Source: a virus. From it: DNA of 20,436 nt. Made by a program: the position numbers and the translations under genes. The stretch spans positions 1 to 20,436 of the IMG/VR virus record IMGVR_UViG_3300009550_000076; one strand, given 5' to 3'. The notes beneath the pieces are model-generated. The model searched no databases. It was given only the letters and a program-made list of their open reading frames with translations, and was not told where the DNA came from. Of this stretch, positions 10,429 to 13,766 are shown one piece after another. How positions within the stretch are numbered: position 1 is the first letter of the stretch; each line of letters begins with the position of its first letter.

Positions 10429-10452
10429 TAATAGTTTAATACTTTATATTAG

Positions 10453-10479
10453 AAAGCCACTCTTCGGAGTGGCTTTTTT
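10453..10479 (+). terminator. rho-independent terminator with UUCG tetraloop after the capsid gene
   Basis: AAAGCCACTC (10453-10462) pairs with GAGTGGCTTT (10467-10476) around the very stable TTCG loop, followed by a T run to 10479. It ends the head gene unit. Confidence 0.95.
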
Positions 10480-10526: not shown

Positions 10527-11363
10527 ATGGGAAAATTAAAAACATATGATCAATTTGTTAATGAAGCATTAATAGATGCAATTAAGAATCCAATCAAATG
10601 GAAGAAGATCAAAAACAATGCTAAGAAATACCAAAAGGCTAAAGTAGCACAAGCTCTTAATGATGTAGATTTTGCAAAGAAAAAAGCAAAAGGAAAGGTT
10701 AGTATGACTGCTAAACAAAAAGAAGTTTTGACTCAAGCAAATAAAGCTAAGAATTCTGCACTTAAAGATCAAGCCGATGCTATTACACAAAGAATGAATG
10801 ATTTAGCAACAACTGATGGTTTAAAAAAGGTTGCTGCATTGGCAAGAACTAAATCTAATCTTGCTGCTAATAAGATAGTACTTAAGGCTGCTGATGGTGA
10901 AGAAGCTAAACAATTAAAAATTAAACAAACTGCATTATCTAAAAAAGCTGCTGAACAAGGTAAAGCTTTAGCTGATTATGAAGATACCTCATCTGATTCT
11001 AAAGATGATAATGAAGGAGAAGCATCAGCAAAATTAGAAAAAGGTATTAAGGACTTTCAATCTAATATGGATGCTGCTCAAGAAACTAAGAAAAAAGCTA
11101 AAGAAGCTTTGGTTAAATTAGGAGATAAGAAAAAAGAACAAGAAAAGAAAGGTACTGGTGGTGAAGACGGTGAAAAGGCAATGGATAAAATTAATAAGGA
11201 AATCACTAAACAAGAAAGATTAGTAACTGGTGCTGATGAAGATTATGCTGAACTTAAAAAGAAAAGAGATGGCTTAAAAGATAAGTTAGCTAATTTAACT
11301 AGTGAATCTTTTGAATATGTAGCAGAATCTGTTGCTCAGAAATTTGCAAGATTAAGAAAATAA
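10527..11363 (+). CDS. lysine-rich head internal-protein-like protein with capsid-targeting N-terminus
   Basis: The 278-residue, lysine- and alanine-rich protein looks almost entirely helical. Its N-terminus LKTYDQFVNEA resembles the capsid-targeting sequence MKTYQEFIAEA of T4 internal proteins IPI-IPIII. That sequence sends them into the prohead and is removed by gp21 after the Glu. Here the equivalent cut would follow Glu13. Near the C-terminus a second such motif, SFEYVAES (cut after about Glu267), precedes a basic tail, SVAQKFARLRK. The middle is Lys/Glu coiled coil without catalytic motifs. It follows the capsid gene after a terminator. I infer a protein packaged with, or involved in forming, the prohead core, perhaps ejected with DNA. 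A scaffold-accessory role is the main alternative. Confidence 0.75.
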   Translation: MGKLKTYDQFVNEALIDAIKNPIKWKKIKNNAKKYQKAKVAQALNDVDFAKKKAKGKVSMTAKQKEVLTQANKAKNSALKDQADAITQRMNDLATTDGLKKVAALARTKSNLAANKIVLKAADGEEAKQLKIKQTALSKKAAEQGKALADYEDTSSDSKDDNEGEASAKLEKGIKDFQSNMDAAQETKKKAKEALVKLGDKKKEQEKKGTGGEDGEKAMDKINKEITKQERLVTGADEDYAELKKKRDGLKDKLANLTSESFEYVAESVAQKFARLRK

Positions 11364-11372
11364 TTATTAACT

Positions 11373-11438
11373 ATGAAATGTGAATGTACTAAATGCGGTT
11401 GTGGTAAATCATGTGAATGTACATGTTGTAACTGTTAA
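11373..11438 (+). CDS. 21-residue metallothionein-like cysteine-rich peptide
   Basis: A short ORF, ATG at 11373 to TAA at 11436-11438, encodes 21 residues of which nine are cysteine (3, 5, 8, 10, 14, 16, 18, 19, 21). They are arranged as CEC, CGC, CEC and CTCC with Lys, Glu, Thr and Gly between. CxC and CC spacings like these are typical of metallothioneins that wrap Zn(II) or Cu(I) clusters. No other residue class could explain the composition. The start lies 9 bases after the stop of the preceding gene, behind an A/T-rich leader like others here. The stop is 11 bases before the next gene, which encodes a zinc-ribbon protein. Tight packing on both sides supports a real gene, although its size prevents certainty. 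Confidence 0.6.
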   Translation: MKCECTKCGCGKSCECTCCNC

Positions 11439-11449
11439 ATTAAAACCTT

Positions 11450-11941
11450 ATGTATAAAGTTCGTAAAATAAACTTTGGATGGTATAAAAGGCGGTATGGG
11501 ATTCTTCTAGAAAACCTGCCGCCTTTGAAGCAAAAATTGCTTTTAAATAACCGTCATATGAAATGGCTAGATTCTGATACTCAAGCTTTTGAAGTTATAT
11601 TTAAAGTAGAGGATATGAATGGCCATGAAAAGAATGTTAATAAACCTATATGGAATCCTTTTAGAGAAACATTTACTACTCTTAAAGAATTAGAAAAAGA
11701 TGCAGATCTTATTGATTGGAATTGTGGAATATGTAAAGTTCCTATTAAATCTAGAATGGATTCTAAAAAAGTAGAAAATTTTGTTTGTAGTAAATGTTCT
11801 AAGGCTCATAACTCACGGAACAAAAGTGTAGATGGTAGAATTATAGATACATCAATTAAATTTACTAAACACTGTAAACACCTCTTAAAAAAGGAACAAA
11901 GAGAGTTTATGACTTATGCTAAAAGATCATCTAAGGCTTAA
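11450..11941 (+). CDS. zinc-ribbon protein of unknown function
   Basis: The 163-residue basic protein has two CxxC knuckles, Cys92/Cys95 (CGIC) and Cys113/Cys116 (CSKC), 17 residues apart. These form a probable zinc ribbon in the C-terminal half, followed by a basic tail with Cys142/His143. The N-terminal half has a basic patch (GWYKRRYG) and a hydrophobic ILLENLPPLKQKLLLNN segment; I do not recognise it. Zinc ribbons of this kind commonly bind nucleic acid, but nothing here fixes the role. It follows the cysteine-rich peptide by 11 bases. Its 3' end overlaps the convergent minus-strand gene by 15 bases, with no terminator between. A G+C-rich hairpin lies in codons 13-26. Confidence 0.7.
   Translation: MYKVRKINFGWYKRRYGILLENLPPLKQKLLLNNRHMKWLDSDTQAFEVIFKVEDMNGHEKNVNKPIWNPFRETFTTLKELEKDADLIDWNCGICKVPIKSRMDSKKVENFVCSKCSKAHNSRNKSVDGRIIDTSIKFTKHCKHLLKKEQREFMTYAKRSSKA
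11487..11526 (+). repeat. G+C-rich inverted repeat inside the zinc-ribbon gene
   Basis: AAAGGCGG (11487-11494) and CCGCCTTT (11519-11526) are perfect 8-base inverted copies 24 bases apart, with a possible inner GG/CC pairing and a TTCTAGAA palindrome in the loop. It stands out against the AT-rich surroundings. Confidence 0.55.
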
Positions 11942-12733
11942 TCCTTGATCTATTGTAATTTTTGGAAAAATATTTAATCTACTATAAGGTGAAGCATTTA
12001 ATACTGTTACACCTTTTGCTTTTAATTCAGAATCAAGTTGTTTAAATCCAGGTAAAAATTTATCAATATAAATATGGTCACCTGCCCCTCTAGTAGGATA
12101 ACCGTCATGAAAGTGTGTTTGGGTTCCATCATTAGACATGTCGAATCCTAATAAGATAATTTTAGCTGCTCCTAAATGATAAGCAAGATTAATAGCAGCA
12201 TATCCACTATTAAAACCATGTGCTAAAGTTTCAGGATCTTCTTCTAAACCATAAGGCTTACCTTTTCTTAATACTTGTATATCACTTGTATATTGGCTAC
12301 CTGCCTTTAATGCAAACTTTAAACCTTGATAATTATCTACTTCATTTTTAAACCAAGTATAAAACCTACCATCAGTCCAATAAACAACATCTGCACCGGC
12401 ATGATATATTAAGGCTTTATTAATTGCAATTGTTCTACAACCTCTTAATTTTCTAAAATCAAATCCTTTTAATGAAGGCCCACCTCCAATAATATAAATT
12501 GTTTCTCCAGAAAATATTTTAGGAACTTGTGAATACTTAACAGTTTTTACAGGCGGTTTTGCAGCATTAACTAAATTAATTGTTTTAGAAACATTAGCAC
12601 GAATCATTTCATTATTTGTAGTTCTTACTGGAACAACAGGTTCATGCCTACGTTGAATATTAGTTCTATGCTCCACTGCCTGGGGCTGTTGGATAATCTT
12701 TCTTATTTTTCTTCTTACGTGATTCCTTTGCAT
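11927..12733 (-). CDS. DUF115/GT42-like Rossmann-fold glycosyltransferase-like protein
   Basis: This is the only gene on the minus strand. From the ATG at 12733 it is 268 residues. A basic N-terminal tail (MQRNHVRRKIRKI) of about 75 residues leads into IYIIGGGPSLKGFDF, then CRTIAINKAL and ADVVYWTD. Later come GFNSGYAAINLAYHLGAAKIILLGFDM and a His-rich THFHDGYPTRGAGDH. This order matches GT42 sialyltransferases (GNGPSLK...TSGVYMCAVAIALGYKEIYLSGIDF) and DUF115/MptE-like proteins, which bind nucleotide-activated substrates. Its substrate is unknown. An upstream in-frame ATG at 12805 would overlap the divergent gp44 start, so the 12733 start, which follows an AT-rich leader, is preferred. Confidence 0.8.
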   Translation of the reverse strand: MQRNHVRRKIRKIIQQPQAVEHRTNIQRRHEPVVPVRTTNNEMIRANVSKTINLVNAAKPPVKTVKYSQVPKIFSGETIYIIGGGPSLKGFDFRKLRGCRTIAINKALIYHAGADVVYWTDGRFYTWFKNEVDNYQGLKFALKAGSQYTSDIQVLRKGKPYGLEEDPETLAHGFNSGYAAINLAYHLGAAKIILLGFDMSNDGTQTHFHDGYPTRGAGDHIYIDKFLPGFKQLDSELKAKGVTVLNASPYSRLNIFPKITIDQGLSLR

Positions 12734-12741
12734 AGCTGATC

Positions 12742-12794
12742 TATTTTTATATTTATTCAATGTAAACAATCTTATTTTTTTACATATAAAAATA
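12742..12794. promoter_or_regulatory. divergent promoter region with two TATAAAAATA elements
   Basis: The 70-base gap between the divergent starts holds TATAAAAATA on the minus strand (12742-12751), 8 bases before the ATG at 12733. The same sequence is on the plus strand (12785-12794), 9 bases before the ATG at 12804. Mirror placement of an identical decamer suggests paired outward promoters, though AT-richness tempers this. Confidence 0.4.
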
Positions 12795-12803
12795 AACAAA
12801 TTC

Positions 12804-13766
12804 ATGCGGAATATACAAAATATCTTACTTACTGAAAAGTACCGACCAACGGCATTAGAAGATTTAATAACACCTAAAAGAGTAGGTGAAAAATTAAGCA
12901 AAGGAGTTTATCAACATTTACTATTACACGGTAGTCCAGGTACTGGAAAAACATCAGCTGCTAAAGTATTGGTTAAACATTTTAAGCATCCTTATTTATA
13001 CATTAATGCCTCAACTGATACTTCAGTAGATATTGTAAGAAATAGAATAACAGACTTCTGTGCTAATCGTTCAATTATGGATGAGCCAGGAAAAATGAAG
13101 GTAATTATACTTGATGAGATTGATGGTGTATCAGATCAATTCTTTAAAGCTTTAAGAGCCACAATGGATCAATTTGCAATAAATGCAAGATTCATAGCAA
13201 CATGCAATTATATTAATAAAGTACCAGATCCAATTCAATCAAGATTTGAAATGATTGATTTTGATTTTTCTAAAGAAGAAGAAACTGAAATAATGAAAAG
13301 TTACATTATGAGGATTCTAAAAATCTGTAAAGAAGAAGGTATTGATATTGATAAACATGCAGCAGTTGAATTAGTGAAAAGAAAATTTCCTGATTTAAGA
13401 AATATGTTAAATCAATTACAAGGTTTTCAATCACAAGGTAAAGATAAAATAACAGTTGAAGATATAAAACAATTCAGTTCAGTCTATAAAGATATTTATG
13501 ATTTAGTTATAGATGGTGAAGATCCTGTAAAGAATTATCAATATATGTTATCCAATTATGCTAATAGAACTGATGATGTATTATCTTCTTTAGGTGCTGA
13601 ATTTATTGAATTCATTCAACAGGAAAGACAATCATATATTCAATTTATACCTCAAGTAGTCGTAACAGTAGCTAAATATCAATCTCAAAGACAACAAGTA
13701 ATAGATCCAGCAGTATCTATGCTTGCATGTATTTATGAACTGCAATCAATATTAAATGGCGTATGA
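12804..13766 (+). CDS. 44: gp44-like sliding clamp loader, ATPase (large) subunit
   Basis: The 320-residue protein is an AAA+ clamp loader of the RFC/T4 gp44 family, which with gp62 opens and loads the gp45 clamp during replication and late transcription. EKYRP (11-15) is the RFC box, GSPGTGKT (43-50) is Walker A and IILDEID (101-107) is Walker B. Asn135 in ATCN is sensor 1, and QSRF (145-148) provides the arginine finger Arg147. The C-terminal third is helical (collar domain). Length matches T4 gp44 (319). The start at 12804 lies in CATG; no other start fits the EKYRP spacing. Its TGA overlaps the ATG of the following small ORF (ATGA), implying coupled translation. Confidence 0.95.
   Translation: MRNIQNILLTEKYRPTALEDLITPKRVGEKLSKGVYQHLLLHGSPGTGKTSAAKVLVKHFKHPYLYINASTDTSVDIVRNRITDFCANRSIMDEPGKMKVIILDEIDGVSDQFFKALRATMDQFAINARFIATCNYINKVPDPIQSRFEMIDFDFSKEEETEIMKSYIMRILKICKEEGIDIDKHAAVELVKRKFPDLRNMLNQLQGFQSQGKDKITVEDIKQFSSVYKDIYDLVIDGEDPVKNYQYMLSNYANRTDDVLSSLGAEFIEFIQQERQSYIQFIPQVVVTVAKYQSQRQQVIDPAVSMLACIYELQSILNGV

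Follow-up and report, generated by a model that had tools for sequence, protein, structure and literature searches.

The question raised by this locus is whether an open reading frame of only 21 codons, nine of them for cysteine, is a gene, and what its product might do. The window (the whole stretch of viral DNA that was analyzed, an IMG/VR virus record of 20,436 nucleotides) contains T4-type late and replication genes, among them genes for a late sigma factor, head closure protein, DNA end protector, portal, prohead protease, major capsid protein, clamp loader, an exonuclease/RNase H-like protein and GroES. The capsid protein was closest to those of uncultured huge phages (53% identity) and was also near those of Lak phages of Prevotella and of phages of Tenacibaculum, Chryseobacterium and Flavobacterium, so the host of the virus is likely a member of the Bacteroidetes. 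The reading frame occupies a gap of 86 bases between the end of one gene (11363) and the start of the next (11450), in the following arrangement:

10451-10478, hairpin resembling a terminator, immediately behind the major capsid gene
10527..11363, plus strand, upstream gene that follows the major capsid gene, 278 amino acids, no family match
11364..11372, plus strand, spacer of 9 bases, A/T-rich, 5' of the start codon of the cysteine-rich frame
11373..11438, plus strand, cysteine-rich peptide gene, 21 codons, MKCECTKCGCGKSCECTCCNC, TAA stop
11450..11941, plus strand, downstream gene, 163 amino acids, CxxC-x17-CxxC, zinc-ribbon-like

Translation of 11373-11438 bore out an earlier note on this DNA, which had described a peptide of 21 residues with nine cysteines (42.9%, given there as 43%) in the 86-base gap. 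The cysteine signature of MKCECTKCGCGKSCECTCCNC is CxCxxCxCxxxCxCxCCxC, and the last cysteine abuts the stop codon. The spacer at 11364..11372 contains no Shine-Dalgarno-like purine run, which is usual for Bacteroidetes, and A/T-rich leaders of the same kind were found throughout the peptide family. The peptide also follows a homolog of the 278-amino-acid gene in close relatives of the window. Given the hairpin behind the capsid gene, this gene may be joined with the peptide and zinc-ribbon genes in a unit that is either separate or reached by read-through. Further downstream, a gene on the minus strand (11927-12901) matches phrog_4603, 'alpha-2,3-sialyltransferase' (E 3e-39), and its 5' end overlaps the clamp-loader gene (12804-13766).

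Judged by its substitution pattern in related phages, the frame at 11373-11438 is a genuine gene under protein-level selection. Relatives were fetched by means of the downstream gene (11450-11941), a choice that is blind to the peptide, and 33 of the 80 loci obtained had the same frame directly before the same gene. Together with the window these made 34 orthologs, all of 21 codons, with 17 DNA alleles and 14 peptides, so that the conservation check proposed earlier for related phages was passed both in position and in coding-type substitution. The first and second positions of the cysteine codons were invariant with the sole exception of a CAC codon (C16H) in one ortholog (L008), and third positions varied at eight of the nine codons but were always T or C (TGT/TGC counts of 129/23, plus the one CAC). 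All nine cysteines were kept in 33 of the 34 orthologs, a set that was not forced by any search pattern. Other codons were more variable than the cysteine codons, although their changes were still mostly conservative, and pN/pS of the whole frame was 0.30. The RNA over positions 11340-11470 was less structured than shuffles (z = +2.0), which indicates that selection acts on the peptide.

The brevity of the frame, just 21 codons, is what would favor a functionless frame left open by chance. However, none of 300 resamples of the window under a first-order (dinucleotide) Markov model contained a frame of 15-40 amino acids with as much as 35% cysteine (mean maximum 17%, highest 32%), and this result, the conservation over 34 loci and the more than 130 distinct sequences described below leave chance with a negligible probability. 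The gene was missing from many close relatives of the window, and a pattern scan of six related named phage records did not find the cysteine signature; the gene is therefore dispensable.

The neighboring protein encoded by 11450-11941 had been taken for a zinc-ribbon protein. Its four cysteines (CxxC-x17-CxxC) were invariant in 20 relatives and are consistent with a zinc ribbon, but the predicted structure was poor (pLDDT 49). A special link with this neighbor was not supported: the peptide occurs in many other contexts. Even on several contigs of close relatives (such as L011, L016, L023, and L025) the peptide was encoded elsewhere and not beside the zinc-ribbon gene. A functional tie between the two was dropped, as they are neighbors in the window clade only. 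In two further relatives (L022 and L028) the last codons of the peptide and its trailer, TAACTGTTAAATTAAAAC, remain just before the zinc-ribbon gene and the rest is gone, an apparent deletion scar that would be a trace of gene loss.

The size of the family was estimated by searching 2.9 million viral contigs with a DNA pattern of the cysteine spacing followed by TAA; an earlier, looser pattern was swamped by poly-cysteine repeat frames, and the stricter pattern with the stop codon was used. At least 120 matches were obtained, and those inspected were true short frames with an ATG one to four codons ahead of the first cysteine. The distinct peptides, 20-23 amino acids in length, numbered at least 115 from viruses and 20 from contigs of marine Bacteroidetes. 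Marine virus sequences that carry the gene without annotation thus number well above 100. Because the search pattern itself imposes the cysteine spacing, most weight falls on the sets free of this constraint, which are the window locus and the loci of a phage dehydrogenase; in the latter the nine-cysteine signature was found in 15 of 15 peptides encoded upstream of the dehydrogenase. A free scan of the loci for cysteine-rich short frames, with no fixed spacing, detected 133 distinct peptides with the exact signature, and the only variants besides evident repeat or out-of-frame noise were C16H and a form of 36 amino acids in L150. This longer version (reverse strand, core near 13230; MRNRQNCNCENCKCQKACNCMKCNCSKSCDCACCDC) has 14 cysteines, and its extended CxCxxCxCxxxC half suggests growth of the cluster.

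Sequence rules beyond the cysteines were evident. All members have their first cysteine at residue 2-5, asparagine or aspartate is favored after it and at core position 18, serine is favored at position 11, and glycine is favored at position 9 in the phage peptides. Spacers are hydrophilic (N/D/K/T/S/G). Phenylalanine, tryptophan and tyrosine were absent from the distinct cores compared (113 viral among the matches listed and 19 bacterial), and histidine was found once at a spacer position among them, the C16H variant being a separate case. No member has a signal peptide.

The expectation that annotation would overlook such a gene, and that no phage protein of this kind had been described, agreed with the family libraries and the literature searched. 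The peptide had no match in Pfam or NCBIfam at E up to 10, nor did the family consensus in a PDB sequence search, both having little power for very short queries, and the family had no PHROG match. A tblastn search of 50,697 phage records also gave no match, in a test weakened by low-complexity filtering, and no report on phage or viral metallothioneins was found in a literature search that covered few subscription papers. Common descent of the viral and bacterial peptides is likely rather than proven because very short peptides defeat homology statistics.

A homolog of the window capsid protein was detected in only two of ten larger or diverse peptide-bearing records, one at 36-46% identity, and the peptide therefore appears to span distant phage groups. 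Close relatives of the window made up only seven of the 122 peptide-bearing viral loci among the matches listed. Gene contexts differed: the peptide gene was found beside structural genes, after holins, overlapping at its start with a predicted cupin gene, and before the dehydrogenase. Among the matches listed, the upstream gene was on the same strand in 115 of 117 phage loci and within 60 nucleotides in 110 of 117, with a median gap of 14 nucleotides; such small gaps fit co-transcription, and the arrangement is as expected for a passenger gene placed last in late operons. The gene is probably expressed late because it sits beside capsid, protease and holin genes.

The gene whose stop the peptide start overlaps or abuts in about 25 phage loci (e.g., L244:4103-4363) encodes a protein of 87 amino acids from a marine-phage family with no Pfam or PHROG match. 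Its model had a pLDDT of 92.5, Foldseek matched it to cupins including the Fe(II) enzyme HppE and the DMSP lyase DddQ, and H30, D32, and H71 were invariant in the family. The protein is thus predicted to be a cupin, and metal binding is common in this fold. No metal-resistance gene was consistently linked among the neighbors of the peptide gene.

An FAD/pyridine-nucleotide dehydrogenase is encoded by the next gene downstream in about 40 peptide-bearing viral loci, as would be expected if the peptide served as a redox buffer, that is, a thiol pool or a dithiol/disulfide electron carrier working, for example, with this adjoining enzyme. However, the peptide is present at just 15 of 67 dehydrogenase loci, and in the window lineage and the bacteria it occurs with no dehydrogenase as neighbor. 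Arrays dense in CC and CxC are typical of metal clusters and not of CxxC redox pairs. As the main function, redox buffering is unlikely, although metal binding would not preclude a redox role.

A conserved RNA was found between the peptide gene and the dehydrogenase gene, within the 110-127 nucleotides that precede the latter (e.g., L213, L230, and L322; about 90 other loci). It has a hairpin of 5-6 base pairs in about 19 different complementary stem versions, and pairing of its loop, CAUAGC, with GCUGUG further downstream gives an H-type pseudoknot whose helix also covaries (UAUAGC/GCUGUA, CAUAAC/GUUGUG). The second pseudoknot strand is partly shared with a terminator hairpin that has a U run, so the pseudoknot would compete with this hairpin. 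There was no Rfam match at E up to 1. In an independent scan, 60 of 69 copies were directly before the dehydrogenase gene, and others preceded a GIY-YIG-like gene, a P-loop kinase-like gene or one further family. The element looks like a transcription-attenuating riboswitch or a protein-binding leader, and is a candidate for either. As a regulator of the cysteine-rich peptide it was dropped, since its place is 3' of the peptide gene and it tracks the dehydrogenase with or without the peptide.

The presence of this terminator-bearing RNA after the peptide in one clade bears on another explanation, in which the frame is a cysteine-sensing leader where low Cys-tRNA stalls translation and switches the downstream gene. 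Polycysteine short frames of mycobacteria are reported as such leaders in PMC13236596, which cites Canestrari et al. (2020). The phage gene is likewise a very short, cysteine-rich frame, its nine cysteine codons often directly ahead of another gene. Several observations argue against a leader. The RNA occurs in 43 of the 67 dehydrogenase loci and so goes with the dehydrogenase rather than with the peptide. At about ten phage loci and no fewer than two bacterial ones the gene downstream is convergent; nothing is led there, and the same-strand target that an attenuator leader would control is missing. The mycobacterial leaders regulate downstream sulfur genes, whereas the genes after the phage peptide are diverse or absent and none is a sulfur gene. 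The low structure of the RNA at the window gene gave no sign of the alternative structures of an attenuator. Lastly, both the cysteine spacing and the other residues are conserved, and one cysteine is replaced by histidine. The leader reading is disfavored, and we regard it as very unlikely.

The gene is also present, by its sequence context, on chromosomes of some marine Flavobacteriia. The pattern matched 16 contigs of a GTDB-based collection, 15 of which were Bacteroidetes, mostly marine metagenome-assembled or single-cell genomes; the sixteenth (L317, Idiomarina) was rejected as a poly-cysteine repeat artifact. Most bacterial copies share a largely syntenic arrangement of cellular genes, which from their sequences we take to be glutamine synthetase, a sodium/calcium-exchanger-type protein, a frame of 119 amino acids, the peptide, a lipoprotein and a pirin-like gene. 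Because they are set among conserved cellular genes, the copies are not obviously proviral. In the genus of genome G001, at least 18 of 25 genomes carry the gene (a lower bound, the genomes being incomplete), with all nine cysteines present though two mismatches were allowed. It was found in two of 60 genomes of a family sample and in one of 396 of an order sample, G001 itself. The description of the peptide as phage-encoded thus holds for a selected phage gene but not as an exclusive property of phages. Two bacterial copies (L308 and L411) have ATA where their relatives have the ATG start, perhaps non-ATG initiation or a decaying copy.

The bacterial copies weigh on the proposal that the peptide is a takeover factor that strips zinc from host RNA polymerase sites, ribosomal proteins or a defense nuclease. 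Several phage lineages carry it, and metallothioneins bind zinc tightly, the bacterial ones tighter than animal or plant sites (PMC10612145). A toxic sink, however, would hardly be kept on the chromosome in 18 of 25 genomes of a marine flavobacterial genus, and the window gene lies among late and not early takeover genes. Such a role is quite unlikely.

Few functions other than a metal-thiolate cluster or thiol buffer are plausible because nine thiols are packed in 21 residues with no hydrophobic core, signal or leader. Cysteine-rich short peptides are common as precursors of ribosomally synthesized, modified peptides (RiPPs), and a precursor or a disulfide-rich structural or secreted peptide could be envisaged; however, the first cysteine is too near the start for a leader in all members, and the neighbors include no conserved modifying enzyme or exporter, which together with the missing signal peptide makes this highly improbable. 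The gene probably encodes a minimal, single-cluster metallothionein-like peptide that buffers or shuttles Zn(II) or Cu(I). A metal-cluster function as such is rather likely; the choice of metal and the role are inferred. The only cysteine replacement tolerated in the orthologs is by histidine, the other soft-metal ligand, and cysteine to histidine is a classic metal-ligand exchange.

The metallothionein-cluster layout proposed earlier held in its essentials, the peptide being small, with about 40% cysteine in CxC/CxxC/CC arrays, no aromatic residues and no histidine in the metal-binding core apart from the one spacer residue; what had been missed was the large size of the family and its presence beyond phages. 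The Zn3Cys9 beta domain of animal metallothioneins has nine cysteine ligands (PMC10243857). Both have nine cysteines (four CxC plus one), hydrophilic spacers and no aromatics, but the phage core has about 19 residues and the animal domain about 30, the cysteine spacing differs, and the phage peptide has a CC pair and a gene of its own; no sequence homology between the two was detectable. The copper metallothionein of Neurospora crassa (PDB 1T2Y, 25 amino acids) is a single-domain cysteine array of similar size, but it is fungal and has seven cysteines in a different spacing (CxCx5CxCx3CxCx2C); phmmer gave no match to the phage peptide, and membership in the fungal family was not indicated by the PDB search either. 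The SmtA/BmtA/PmtA-type metallothioneins are likewise bacterial, cysteine-rich and presumed to buffer zinc in the cytosol, but are more than twice as long as the phage peptide. They have zinc-finger folds with histidine ligands (PMC10612145). Pfam and NCBIfam matches, at E up to 10, did not place the phage peptide in any known bacterial metallothionein family.

As a metallothionein-like protein, the peptide would be made in the cytoplasm of the infected cell, a reducing environment, and could fold only by wrapping its nine thiolates around a small cluster of soft metal ions. These would be either several Cu(I) or three Zn(II), the latter as in the animal beta domain with its nine cysteines. 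The metal-loaded peptide would then buffer or shuttle zinc or copper. Phages of marine Bacteroidetes, T4-related ones and others, exchange the gene as an accessory cassette, and it is common to them and a genus of small-genome marine Flavobacteriia, which keeps it at a fixed chromosomal site. The phage might benefit by having metal buffered while host metalloproteins are lost and released metal is sequestered; equally compatible would be a supply of metal to phage metalloproteins such as the cupin.

More tentatively, the peptide could be the smallest known gene-encoded metallothionein, a ribosomal counterpart of phytochelatin-like buffers that is mobile, shared with host Flavobacteriia and in control of the intracellular zinc or copper pool during infection, a possibility that we rate as less likely than not. 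Because so small a peptide can be synthesized chemically, the metal hypothesis is open to direct tests. The family illustrates that a widespread, strongly selected gene can escape both length cut-offs and HMM libraries. If the metal-binding reading is true, gene-encoded metallothioneins would extend down to a new minimum size, and metal buffering would join the functions carried by ocean viruses.
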